Shown here piece after piece: positions 38,102 to 42,688 of a stretch of 42,688 nucleotides of DNA. Numbering within the stretch: the first letter of the stretch is position 1; each line of letters opens with the position of its first letter. The DNA lies in assembly GCF_017468685.1 (NCBI RefSeq), contig NZ_JAFUHT010000080.1:1-42688 (forward strand), read 5' to 3'. This DNA is from Methanobrevibacter sp. GTDB lineage: Archaea; Methanobacteriota; Methanobacteria; Methanobacteriales; Methanobacteriaceae. The notes beneath the pieces are model-generated. The model saw only the letters and a list, made by a program, of their open reading frames with translations. It had not been told where the DNA came from and did not search any database. The translations under genes and the position numbers were made by a program.

Positions 38102-39712
38102 ATGGACGTAATGATTTTAGCAATTGTATTTATAGTCTACATATTCGCACTCGTTTTTGTAGGTTATTATGCATACAAAAAGACTAATTCCTCTGAAGAC
38201 TTTATGATAGCGGGTAAAGATACTCACCCATTCATTATGGCAATGAGTTATGGAGCTACTTTTATCTCGACTGCAGCTATTGTTGGTTTTGGAGGAGTTG
38301 CCGGTCAATATGGTATGAGTGTATTATGGTTAGCATTCTTAAACATTATCATAGGTATATTCATAGCATTCGTATTTTTAGGTAAAAGAACTCGTCGTAT
38401 GGGTCACGCATTAGGCTCATTGACATTTCCGGAATTTTTAGGAAAACGTTTCGACTCTAAATTCATCCAATATGCTTCAGGTTTAATAATTTTCTGTGCA
38501 ATGCCAATTTATGCAGCAGTGGTATTAATCGGTGCTGCAAGATTTCTGGAATCATCCCTGCTTATTGATTTTAGTATTGCATTGCTGATATTATCAATTA
38601 TTATTACATTTTATGTATTGTTCGGTGGAATACGTGGAGTAATGTACACTGACGCACTTCAAGGAACAATCATGGTTCTAGCCATGGTATTCTTATTGGT
38701 ATTTATATACTGGTTACTTGGAGGAGTGGACACCGCAAACACAGCACTGACACAAATGAGCAATCTGTATCCGGCAGATGCCTTGGCAACTGGTGGTACG
38801 GGATGGACATCGTTTCCGGAATTTGGAACACCGTTCTGGTGGTCACTTGTATCTTCAACATTAATCGGTGTAGGTATTGGGGTACTCGCACAACCTTCAT
38901 TAATCGTAAGATTCATGACAGTTAAATCAGACAAAGAATTAAACAGATCTGTTTTAATCGGAGGAATATTCATTGCAATCATGCCGACAACCGCATACAT
39001 TGTTGGATCTCTTTCCAATGTATACTTCTTTGACAAGTTAGGTCAAATTGCAGTGGATGTTGTAGGAGGAAACATCGACAAGATTATCCCTACATTCATT
39101 ACAATGGCACTGCCTGAATGGTTTGTATATATATTCCTCTTGTCCCTGATTGCAGCTGCAATGTCAACAATATCATCACAACTCCACACTCAGGGAACAG
39201 CATTCGGTGTAGACATATACTCAACAATAAGGGAAAAATCCAAACAGAAACTCGATCAGGTATCTATTTCAAGAGTAGGTATTCTAATTGCAATTATATT
39301 GGCATTGGTAATGGCATTCTCACTTCCTGGAAGTGTGGTTGCACTTGGAACAAGCCTATTCTTTGAAATCTGTGCAGCAGCATTCCTGCCAGTATTTTTA
39401 GGAGCACTCTACTGGAAAGGAATTACAAGACAAGGTGCTATTGCAGGAATTGTATCTGGAACATTCGTAAGTCTCTTCTGGTTAATATTCGTGTTCAAGA
39501 AAACCGCATTAGGACTTGGAATCTGCCAATTCCTCTTAGGTGTTGAAACAATCCTTCCAGCTGCACCATGGCCGTTTATTGACGTAATGTTGATAGCAGT
39601 TCCAATTTCAGCATTATTTACAATTGTCGTAAGTTTACTTACCAAACCTCCGGCACAAGAGGTCATCGACAAAGCATTTTCACAAATCGATAAAAAAGGA
39701 AGTGACGCATAA
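38102..39712 (+). CDS. Sodium:solute symporter (SSS family)
   Basis: The 536-residue permease has about 13 hydrophobic helices. SSS-family markers include NSSEDFMIAGKDTHPFIMAMSYGATFISTAAIVGFGG near residue 30 (the Na2 and substrate-binding region of helix 1-2), FPEFLGKRFDS, and IMPTTAYIVGSL. The C-terminus is polar. SSS members carry sugars, amino acids, pantothenate or organic acids with Na+; the substrate here is unknown. ATG 38102 has GAGGT upstream. It is coupled to the small gene that follows by a TAATG overlap, and is preceded by a palindromic site. Confidence 0.88.
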   Translation: MDVMILAIVFIVYIFALVFVGYYAYKKTNSSEDFMIAGKDTHPFIMAMSYGATFISTAAIVGFGGVAGQYGMSVLWLAFLNIIIGIFIAFVFLGKRTRRMGHALGSLTFPEFLGKRFDSKFIQYASGLIIFCAMPIYAAVVLIGAARFLESSLLIDFSIALLILSIIITFYVLFGGIRGVMYTDALQGTIMVLAMVFLLVFIYWLLGGVDTANTALTQMSNLYPADALATGGTGWTSFPEFGTPFWWSLVSSTLIGVGIGVLAQPSLIVRFMTVKSDKELNRSVLIGGIFIAIMPTTAYIVGSLSNVYFFDKLGQIAVDVVGGNIDKIIPTFITMALPEWFVYIFLLSLIAAAMSTISSQLHTQGTAFGVDIYSTIREKSKQKLDQVSISRVGILIAIILALVMAFSLPGSVVALGTSLFFEICAAAFLPVFLGALYWKGITRQGAIAGIVSGTFVSLFWLIFVFKKTALGLGICQFLLGVETILPAAPWPFIDVMLIAVPISALFTIVVSLLTKPPAQEVIDKAFSQIDKKGSDA

Positions 39713-39825: not shown

Positions 39826-39846
39826 TTTCTCCTAACTTATCTTTTT
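39816..39846 (+). terminator. Hairpin terminator after symporter operon
   Basis: AGGAGA-TTAATT-TCTCCT (six-base stem, six-base loop), followed by AACTTATC and a T-run to 39846. It overlaps the end of the small accessory gene. Confidence 0.7.
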
Positions 39847-39874
39847 TATATCATTAATTACAAATTCATTATCA

Positions 39875-40072
39875 ATGAATGCTAATGGCTCTGAAAGAAT
39901 TTTTACAAAAGAATTTTTCCTGATATTTGCAGCATTGCTTTTTACCGCTCTTGTGATGTGTGCATTGATGTCAGTAACTGAATATGCAACAACAATGGGT
40001 TCAACAAAATCAAAATTTATATTAAAAGGAATTGTATCTAAAAATGAAGATTGTGAAAAGTTATATTTCTAA
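39875..40072 (+). pseudogene. Truncated MFS transporter (N-terminus only)
   Basis: Translation gives 65 residues. The first 45 (IFTKEFFLIFAALLFTALVM, then SVTEYATTMGSTKS) are the N-terminal helix and loop of a major facilitator superfamily permease, which normally runs about 400 residues. After GSTKS the sequence turns polar (KFILKGIVSKNEDCEKLYF) and stops. The rest of the transporter is missing and is not found further along. The break at about 40,012 lies directly before the XRE/ImmA/PIN operon, so the gene was probably cut by insertion or deletion there. Confidence 0.65.
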
Positions 40073-40099
40073 TCAAGCAAATACGATTTGTATTAAGTA

Positions 40100-40639
40100 T
40101 TAGTTATAACACATCTTATCATCTTTATCATAGAAATCTTTAAAAGACATTTGGGGATGTTTAGGATTTTTCAACAATTCTTTCCATATCTTTTCTGCTT
40201 CATCAAAAGTCAGGTATCCTTTTTCATAGCAGGTCACAATTATTTTTGATGTTGTTACATGTTCTAAATGGTATTTTCTCACAAAATAACATACATCATC
40301 CAGATTATTGCTTGCAAGTATTCCATTTTTAGCTATTGCAAGTGAGATGACACTTAATTCTCCTTTACCAATATCTTCTGTTTTATCGTCTGTTATAAAT
40401 GTGTAATATTGATTAAATTCATCACTTCCAAATTCAAGATCATTAATTTCAACATATCCATCCTGAATTAATGATGTTAATCTAGTTTTAATATCTTGAG
40501 GTGTTTTTTTGTTGTATAGTTCCTCTTTGACTTTAGTGGTGATTATGATTTTTGAATATTCTTTTTTCAGCAATTCTGTTCTATTTATTTGTAAAAATGA
40601 TGAAAGACAGTCAGTATCGTAAAAAATTGGTTTAGTCAT
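40100..40639 (-). CDS. PIN-domain nuclease (putative toxin)
   Basis: The 179-residue protein has a PIN-domain layout of acidic residues: FYDTDCLSSF near residue 8, VKEELY near 40, IGKGELSVISLA near 90 and SNNLDDVCYF near 110. VapC-type PIN toxins cleave RNA with these residues. The C-terminal helix segment (about 130-179) is charged. ATG 40639 has GGGTGA upstream and overlaps the end of the ImmA gene by eight bases; earlier in-frame starts at 40648 and 40651 are too close to it. It is the last gene of the XRE-ImmA-PIN operon. Identification as PIN is by motif spacing, without a search. Confidence 0.72.
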   Translation of the reverse strand: MTKPIFYDTDCLSSFLQINRTELLKKEYSKIIITTKVKEELYNKKTPQDIKTRLTSLIQDGYVEINDLEFGSDEFNQYYTFITDDKTEDIGKGELSVISLAIAKNGILASNNLDDVCYFVRKYHLEHVTTSKIIVTCYEKGYLTFDEAEKIWKELLKNPKHPQMSFKDFYDKDDKMCYN

Positions 40640-41387
40640 TGGTATCATCACCCTTATCTACATTAAATACAAGGTCTCCTCTATAACCATCAAGTAGTAG
40701 TTCTTTTTTCTTGCTTTGGCTAATTTTAGCTGTTTCATCTAGGTATTCGATTGTATTAATGTATTTTCCAAGGGTCATGTATTGGTCTTCTTTGGGGGAT
40801 GGTCGGTATAGTTCATCCCCATATCCTCTGATTTTCGCTTCATAGGATATGTATTTGCCTCTAAATTTGTCATATTCTTTTCTTGTAATTAATTTATTAT
40901 TTAAAAGACGAATTAGTAGTGTATGATGGCTGATTTGGAAATATTGCTCAACAGAAATGATGTTTGTAAGATCCCATTCATTGATACTGTTCATCTCACA
41001 ATACTGGAGGAAGCCTTCATCGCTCATGAGAAGGTATGATGCAAACTTATCTGCTTCTCTTTCAGAATCATCTCTTAAAGGATTGTTGCAGATAATAGGT
41101 TTTCCTGAATTTTCTTCTATTAACAAGTGGTAAAGTTCATGGGCTAGAGTAAATCTTTGCCTTCCTTTTGTCATCGTTGAATTGATTCCAATGATTTCGA
41201 TATTTCCATCCTTGATACACATTCCACTAGTTTTTTTAGAAAATGGAATGTATAATATGGTCAGGTCTGGAAGCTTTGACAAAACCACTGATGTGATGTC
41301 AACAGATCCATAAGGAGTCAAGCCCCATTTTTCTCGTAATTTGATGGCTTCGCTATTTAGCTGGTTGTCAGTTTTCAAATTAATCAT
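40632..41387 (-). CDS. ImmA/IrrE family metallopeptidase
   Basis: The 251-residue protein has the ImmA/IrrE zinc-peptidase core: FTLAHELYHLLIEE (HExxH, near residue 81) and READKFASYLLM (third ligand Glu, near 110). ImmA cleaves the XRE-type repressor ImmR in ICEBs1; IrrE/PprI cleaves DdrO. Residues 1-70 match the usual N-terminal part. The C-terminal 90 residues are charged. It overlaps the XRE gene and the PIN gene by eight bases each. The natural target is probably the XRE protein next door, or the antitoxin role of that protein. Confidence 0.85.
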   Translation of the reverse strand: MINLKTDNQLNSEAIKLREKWGLTPYGSVDITSVVLSKLPDLTILYIPFSKKTSGMCIKDGNIEIIGINSTMTKGRQRFTLAHELYHLLIEENSGKPIICNNPLRDDSEREADKFASYLLMSDEGFLQYCEMNSINEWDLTNIISVEQYFQISHHTLLIRLLNNKLITRKEYDKFRGKYISYEAKIRGYGDELYRPSPKEDQYMTLGKYINTIEYLDETAKISQSKKKELLLDGYRGDLVFNVDKGDDTND

Positions 41388-41706
41388 CCATTTTACTTGT
41401 TAAGTATTGCATATTCATATAAATCCTATTCATGCTTGCTATGCCTTTAAGGTCATCTGCTTCAATGCTTGTGCTTCTAAGTGCAAATTTTGTATGGTCA
41501 AATTCATCACTCCTACAAAGCAGATAGCTTTCGCTACATCCGAATAATGAGCATAGATTGTTTAAAATGGATAAAGTAATATTCTTGTTGCCATTTTCCA
41601 TGTCAAGCAAATCTTCAGTTGGAATATCCAAATATGAAGAAACCGCCTGAGGAGTCAAATTCATATTTTCTCTGAGAGTTTCCATTCTTGCTCCAATGTT
41701 TTTCAT
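41380..41706 (-). CDS. XRE-family helix-turn-helix regulator
   Basis: The 108-residue protein begins with a Cro/C1-type HTH (about residues 8-65): RMETLRENMNLTPQAVSSYL and ILNNLCSLFGCSESYLLC. The C-terminal tail FALRSTSIEADDLKGIASMN is typical of XRE proteins paired with ImmA/IrrE peptidases. It probably represses its own operon and neutralises or controls the other two products. AAGGTGATTAACC precedes ATG 41706, and a TATA-like run (TTATATATTATAAA in the minus strand, about 41745-41765) lies upstream. Confidence 0.82.
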   Translation of the reverse strand: MKNIGARMETLRENMNLTPQAVSSYLDIPTEDLLDMENGNKNITLSILNNLCSLFGCSESYLLCRSDEFDHTKFALRSTSIEADDLKGIASMNRIYMNMQYLTSKMDD

Positions 41707-41947
41707 GGTTAATCACCTTAAAAAGAATATGGTATTATATTTTAAAAATTTATAATATATAAATTTCTATTAAATGCAATCGAATACAATTTATGAATAT
41801 AATAGTACATAGGTTTGTAATCTATATAAACAATTAGAGAGAGCATTTGCAAAGTAATATTTTTAGCTATGACAATAATCTTTGTAGATTGATTATTTGA
41901 TATTTGACAACATCAATGTTTTTTTGAGGGTCATGTTTTATATATAA
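41707..41947. other. Divergent promoter region
   Basis: Between the XRE gene (minus) and the gene at 41993 (plus). It is AT-rich, with TATA-like runs on both strands and no ORF. The plus-strand TATA at 41937-41947 is close to the operator that follows. Confidence 0.5.
41937..41947 (+). promoter_or_regulatory. TATA box next to an inverted-repeat operator
   Basis: TTTATATATAA lies directly before the inverted repeat at 41950-41982, so a transcript starting about 25 bases on would begin inside that repeat. Confidence 0.5.
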
Positions 41948-41949
41948 AT

Positions 41950-41982
41950 GAAACGTATATTTGGATACAAAATATACGTTTC
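41950..41982. promoter_or_regulatory. 13-base perfect inverted repeat, operator candidate
   Basis: GAAACGTATATTT-GGATACA-AAATATACGTTTC. It covers the expected transcription start and ends 10 bases before ATG 41993. A hairpin in the 5' leader is the other reading. The arms are too long for chance, even in AT-rich DNA. Confidence 0.7.
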
Positions 41983-41992
41983 AAACACTATA

Positions 41993-42393
41993 ATGAATCT
42001 AATATTAGATACTGAAAACTCACATCCAACAATAATAACAGTTAGAGGAAAAGATATAACATTACTGTTAATAGAGTCCAGTATCCTTATTGATTCATCA
42101 CAAGTTGCTAAAATATTTGACAAGAAAGAAAAGACAGTAGCAACCAAAGTACAGAAAAGTAAACTTGAAAATACGAAACAGAGAATGTTAAGCTATTAAA
42201 AAGTTACGGGTTAATGAATCCTGAAGCTGTTAAGCCCAGACCATTCTATGATCTTCGCCAAATGTTGGAAGGACCTGCTGAGTATTATTTCAAACAGATT
42301 GATGATCTTGATCTTATCGATGTTATTGTTAGAGTAGCTATTGGCAAACATCGTGAGTGGATCCATAACAGAGATATTAACAGTGGCCATTGA
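41993..42393 (+). pseudogene. Frameshifted gene with HTH-like segment, unknown function
   Basis: Two ORFs join into one gene. The first (41993-42199, in frame with an ATG at 41948 inside the operator) ends after KTVATKVQKSKLENTKQRML. The second, open from 42169, begins KYETENVKLLKSYGLMNPEA and ends REWIHNRDINSGH. Adding one A to the run GAAAA at about 42167-42171 joins them. The product would have a short strand region, then DSSQVAKIFDKKEKTVATKV, which resembles a DNA-binding HTH (as in Rha/RhuM-like proteins), then a helical C-terminal part. I cannot name the family. With a strong operator, it may be an autoregulated gene from a mobile element. Confidence 0.5.
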
Positions 42394-42563
42394 TTATTGA
42401 AAAACTACTTTTAAAAACTCGTGCATATATATCGGGGTTTAATATACAAATTGAAATCCGAAAACCCTTCCGTTAATGTTAATGTTGATTCATTAAAAAT
42501 GTGAATATTGAATTAAATCAGTGTTTAATTGAACTTAAATCGGTATATATTTATAGTTTTTCT

Positions 42564-42688
42564 CTAAAAGTTTATACCATTTAGTTCAAGCCAATTTTCA
42601 TAAAATGATTTTGATTCGATAATGTCATAGAATTTTTCTTCAAACAAGTTTATTAATTCTTTTGTGGAATTATAAGTTGTTTTGTAGA
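42564..42688 (-). CDS. 3' end of a gene running past the window
   Basis: On the minus strand the last 125 bases translate without a stop as YKTTYNSTKELINLFEEKFY, DIIESKSFYENWLELNGINF, then TAG at 42564-42566. The partial protein is helical and charged, with no motif I can identify. The start lies outside the window. Confidence 0.45.
   Translation of the reverse strand, partial: YKTTYNSTKELINLFEEKFYDIIESKSFYENWLELNGINF

Follow-up and report, generated by a model that had tools for sequence, protein, structure and literature searches.

What is a perfect inverted repeat doing between a TATA-like box and the start of a broken gene in a methanogen chromosome? The question is raised by a 42,688-nucleotide stretch of Methanobrevibacter sp. 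(contig NZ_JAFUHT010000080.1), hereafter the window, in which the initial annotation read such a repeat as a strong operator of the broken gene, like those of tightly repressed phage or ICE genes, and as a possible binding site for the product of a nearby XRE gene.

Results

The repeat and its neighbors in the window

The repeat occupies 41949 to 41983 and consists of perfect 14-bp arms (41949–41962 and 41970–41983) around a 7-bp spacer; the spacer is as initially described, and the arms, given then as 13 bases, are 14 bp long. First-order Markov simulation of the window, run 60 times, never gave a perfect 14-bp repeat with a spacer of 3 to 20, and an Rfam search for an RNA element at the repeat returned no match at E 0.1. 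A TATA-like TTTTATATATAAA is indeed found on the plus strand (41936–41948), directly before the arms. Read from left to right, the window harbors a symporter gene, an MFS remnant, the XRE-ImmA-PIN block, 47 bp, the TATA-like box and site (41936–41980), a provirus gene fragment, and an insertion-element-like contig end. The sodium/solute symporter-like gene (38102–39712, plus strand; named by eye) is a conserved flank that anchors the locus in relatives, and the MFS remnant (39842–40005, plus strand) corresponds to a gene whose end lies shortly before the site in genomes G022, G035, G077, and G084. The contig-end repeat (42548–42688, minus strand), probably the end of an insertion element, also terminates three further contigs of this genome (C20, C34, and C81), and the assembly is thus broken at a repeated element. 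Contig C16 carries a copy, 89% identical, of the noncoding stretch 3′ of the broken gene (42387–42510).

The broken gene (41994–42393, plus strand) starts at an ATG at 41994 and continues from one frame (41994–42199) into another (42169–42393). An intact homologue spans both frames, with the switch near 42165 to 42172 as assembled, and a single open frame passes this point in the homologues examined from the genus, which bears out the initial view that the frame is broken. The gene is a fragment of a provirus-associated family with weak similarity to Rha-like regulators (E 0.01–0.05). Its intact homologues are found in provirus-like clusters, where they follow a tandem pair of ~310-aa proteins and precede, or lie near, a pseudomurein endoisopeptidase (PF12386, PHROG 37889), and also on IMG/VR contig UViG_3300021541, in agreement with the mobile-element context first proposed. 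The tandem proteins look capsid-like by eye only, and the one tested has no Pfam or PHROG match. Such clusters (L184–L202 and L239) occur in many Methanobrevibacter genomes, where the tandem proteins (MITKGND.../MLTKGND...) precede an intact version of the broken gene and variable defense-like cargo.

Similarity between the broken gene and its homologues begins at 41986 to 41992, and the upstream region of the homologues is different and harbors no such repeat; the conservation expected of a phage or ICE early-gene operator is therefore not found. The divergent XRE-ImmA-PIN operon (41706–40100, minus strand) is as initially described, with HTH and Peptidase_M78/IrrE domains identified by Pfam; its third gene, which gave no Pfam match, is termed PIN-type from PADLOC candidate models and by eye only. 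The operon lies in what appears to be a mobile block (40095–41888, minus strand), whose homology to two other genomes (G021 and G034, which have no such repeat there) is confined to roughly this interval. Ahead of the XRE gene, a promoter-like stretch of ~40 bp (41823–41862) has 80 to 91% identical copies at several further places in the same genome. The closest operons of this type, with 88% (L287) and 85% (L288) DNA identity, lack the repeat, and the suggestion that the XRE protein could bind it is therefore unsupported.

The repeat is a member of a genus-wide site family

The repeat contains a 29-bp core (41952–41980, plus strand) that can be written AACGTATATT-N9-AATATACGTT or, with its 8-bp center, AACGTATATT-TGGATACA-AAATATACGTT, and this core is a member of a family of sites that recurs in the genus. 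With one mismatch or less, ACGTATNTTN9AANATACGT is found in 38 of 66 genomes of the genus vs none of 77 other Methanobacteriales genomes. The shorter exact pattern ACGTAT-N15-ATACGT gives about 49 matches in 67 genus genomes, vs 29 for ten other spacings (N16–N25) pooled, many of these being one recurrent, coding-looking sequence. About eight exact N15 matches with one common, coding-looking sequence were set aside by eye. We used this spacing control as background in preference to the reversed pattern, since the latter is not dinucleotide-matched and CG is rare here. In a score matrix built from 20 sites, trusted sites lie at 24 to 38, and random sequence reached 12 a single time in 4 Mb. Copies are found before, behind, and between unrelated genes, and the palindrome is not an operator private to the broken gene. 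We also considered a viral origin of the site and rejected it: of six pattern matches on viral contigs, five are coding sequence and one has no scored site, and none of the contigs is methanogen-like.

A copy linked to a recombinase gene lies at the replication terminus

One copy of the site per genome precedes, by ~85 bp, a conserved tyrosine recombinase gene that is single-copy and encodes 359 to 367 aa (G000:C30:60702–61784), and the window core has the same arms as this copy. The catalytic domain (R, K, HxxR, H, Y) is recognized by PF00589 (E 4e-14), and the corresponding residues can be assigned by eye to SGMRLKEL, TKGELKDR, HILRH, AGHS, and DKYIH. The protein aligns end to end with the archaeal XerA model at 95 bits, below the curated XerA_Arch cut-off of 220 bits, and with XerC models, again end to end and below cut-off. 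Close relatives of this Xer-type recombinase were found in Methanobrevibacter only, the same genus as the site.

Conservation at the xer-linked copies extends into both flanks. We sampled skews as 20 x 20 kb in three closed genomes; GC and TGGT/ACCA skews switch sign at the xer-linked copy in each of them (G011, 85,380; G014, 1,260,185; G033, 1,944), in G033 even though this copy is not opposite cdc6-1. This position at the skew switch makes the xer-linked copy very probably dif. The window locus, by contrast, is ~0.27 to 0.29 of the chromosome from cdc6-1 in the closed genomes G011, G014, and G028, which have no site there. The window repeat has arms and a center within the ranges of dif (arms of ~10–13 bp, center of 6–11 bp), and lying as it does off the terminus, it is dif-like rather than dif, a satellite site at another locus than the xer-linked copy.

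Homology between genomes breaks at the center of the site

In nine genomes, that of the window included, the site is found behind the symporter/MFS gene pair in one orientation, with a carboxymuconolactone-decarboxylase-like gene beyond it where the contig extends that far (family names by eye); named Methanobrevibacter MAGs, several of them ruminant-derived, have the same site at this locus. The gene adjoining the site varies: it is an SDR gene in G003, G069, and G070, a SpoIIM gene in G035 and G089, an Rpn-like gene in G022, a convergent gene in G084, and the provirus fragment in the window. Two genomes have no site at this place; in G061 the MFS gene is followed directly by the decarboxylase-like gene, and in G067 a 585-bp gap separates the two.

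Pairwise comparisons place the changes of neighbor within or close to the core. Between G084 and G077, 93% identity extends from −399 through core position 18, beyond which the two are unrelated, whereas G077 and G070 have the site and right cargo in common to +767 and do not match to the left of −15. Elsewhere, a 647-bp stretch common to G089:C14 (at its second site) and G000:C73 begins at position 19 of the site, and in G089:C28 and G090:C24 the Rpn-like modules are alike essentially from position 11 up to the stop codon. A site-RhuM block is common to G064 and G090 and follows a different gene in each. The breaks at 10|11 and 18|19 are the borders of the 8-bp center (core positions 11–18; 41962–41969 in the window, plus strand), as expected for strand exchange by a tyrosine recombinase at these points, which makes the center the putative crossover region. 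Most of these genomes are MAGs, and some mosaic junctions could therefore be assembly chimeras.

These data bear on two other explanations of the site. The better of the two, which we nevertheless consider unlikely, is that it is an operator or promoter element at which a genus-wide regulator, possibly an autoregulating Xer, covers the transcription start and represses the gene that follows. The TATA-like box just upstream of the site in the window is kept in the xer-linked copies and in copies of the window locus, and the xer-linked copy lies ahead of xer; however, xer apparently has its own TATA box further downstream than the site, many copies lie 15 to 100 bp behind 3′ ends without a TATA box, and downstream genes are unrelated or, as in G084, convergent, so that the site is no promoter there. 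Neither the breaks of homology inside the site nor the absence of the repeat from homologues of the window gene and of the XRE operon fits such a regulator. Less likely still is neutral turnover around a conserved protein-binding site, in which neighbors change by ordinary insertion and deletion and a 44-bp element is under selection. The retention of −15 to +29 at the window locus while left and right neighbors vary, and the finding of mostly one site per locus, speak for this explanation, but independent loci break at both borders of the center, modules that carry a site recur at unrelated loci (L123/L145 and L146/L150), and the main copy is linked to the terminus and to xer.

Small modules are found next to and between sites

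Two sites enclose one module in G000:C51 (a PIN-type pair, by eye), G089:C28 (Rpn-like), and G089:C14 (XRE-ImmA-PIN); within these pairs, similarity in direct orientation is no better than in inverted orientation. The window has one site only, and no score above background was found at the left end of its module (about 40095), where a second site was sought. RhuM, Rpn-like, and C73-type modules each occur beside sites at more than one genomic place; this does not hold for the window cargo. Some sites have 100 to 200 bp of adjacent sequence in common across loci, as if the repeat were a terminus of a MITE or small transposable element, but this sequence is the promoter-like region of module genes and is unlike between module types, no fixed element length is seen, and the site is fixed at one chromosomal place across species while the cargo changes, which together make a transposon end very improbable.

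Module genes adjoining the sites at L100, L114, L115, L145, and L163 have in common a promoter-like region in which CACTTTGTAAAATTTAC-type boxes are repeated ahead of a TATA box, which suggests that these genes are under common regulation. At L146:6104–6590, an intact Rpn-like gene is followed by partial tandem copies of its 3′ end.

Discussion

We propose, with a probability of about 0.72, that the window repeat is a satellite dif-like site of a genus-specific, single Xer-type recombinase, at which modules may enter or leave the chromosome. In this model, which is drawn from comparative sequence data, the recombinase would bind the two ~10- to 11-bp arms (AACGTATMTT), and strands would be exchanged at either edge of the 8-bp center, at 10|11 and 18|19 in the 29-bp core. 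The terminus copy, directly ahead of the recombinase gene, would be dif, the main site, and satellite copies would be docking points for small modules (Rpn, RhuM, XRE-ImmA-PIN, and PIN pairs). Most likely, paired sites with matching centers are bound via their arms, and strand exchange joins or releases the module. In the window, a provirus gene fragment would have been joined on the right of the site, with the XRE-ImmA-PIN module on the left; with a single site present, we infer rather than trace the route by which this cargo arrived. Exchange of the window site with dif itself is not expected, because the center TGGATACA differs from that of dif. A protein bound to the site may, as a side effect, repress at the TATA box, although the strong operator initially assigned to the broken gene is at odds with the recurrence of the repeat beside unrelated genes and, in one copy, beside xer at the replication terminus.

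Several known systems resemble the one proposed here. XerS/difSL of streptococci and XerH/difH are single-recombinase Xer systems with the site beside the gene (PMC5357621); as in these, the Methanobrevibacter system has one Xer (about 355–367 aa), whose gene adjoins a ~30-bp inverted-repeat site with a wide center, but it is archaeal, has another arm sequence, and has extra satellite sites elsewhere in the chromosome. In the classical archaeal system (PMC2958812), dif has 28 bp (11-6-11) and lies apart from xerA. Common to both archaeal systems are an Xer-type enzyme and an inverted repeat at the skew switch of the terminus; the Methanobrevibacter site differs in being 29 bp, with other arms and linked to xer, and its enzyme falls under the XerA_Arch cut-off. 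In Acinetobacter, small modules that encode toxin-antitoxin and other functions lie between dif-like pdif sites (PMC6449649), and this arrangement in one genus only is close to that described here; Acinetobacter modules are mainly on plasmids, whereas the Methanobrevibacter sites are chromosomal, with usually one intact site per locus and a single recombinase. Finally, a single-recombinase dif system, dif/XerL of Legionellales, was revealed by LME-1, a mobile element with a dif mimic (PMC9765430); LME-1 enters dif itself, unlike the modules considered here, whose sites are at other loci and have another center. We found no description of archaeal dif modules or of a Methanobrevibacter dif in the literature searched, the coverage of which was incomplete, and we claim no priority.

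We lean toward the broader view that Methanobrevibacter has an archaeal single-recombinase Xer system, with dif beside the gene and genus-specific satellite sites that exchange defense- or toxin-antitoxin-type modules and pieces of proviruses, and that this is an archaeal counterpart of bacterial dif modules. The xer-linked copy provides a concrete dif candidate for a major genus of gut and rumen methanogens, and ACGTAT-N15-ATACGT is a simple sequence rule with which to find the associated modules. Our findings suggest that an archaeal chromosome-resolution enzyme is exploited to swap small gene modules, as in Acinetobacter and Legionella; if this reading is true, the spare sites would mark, across the genus, the points at which small defense- or toxin-type modules are swapped.
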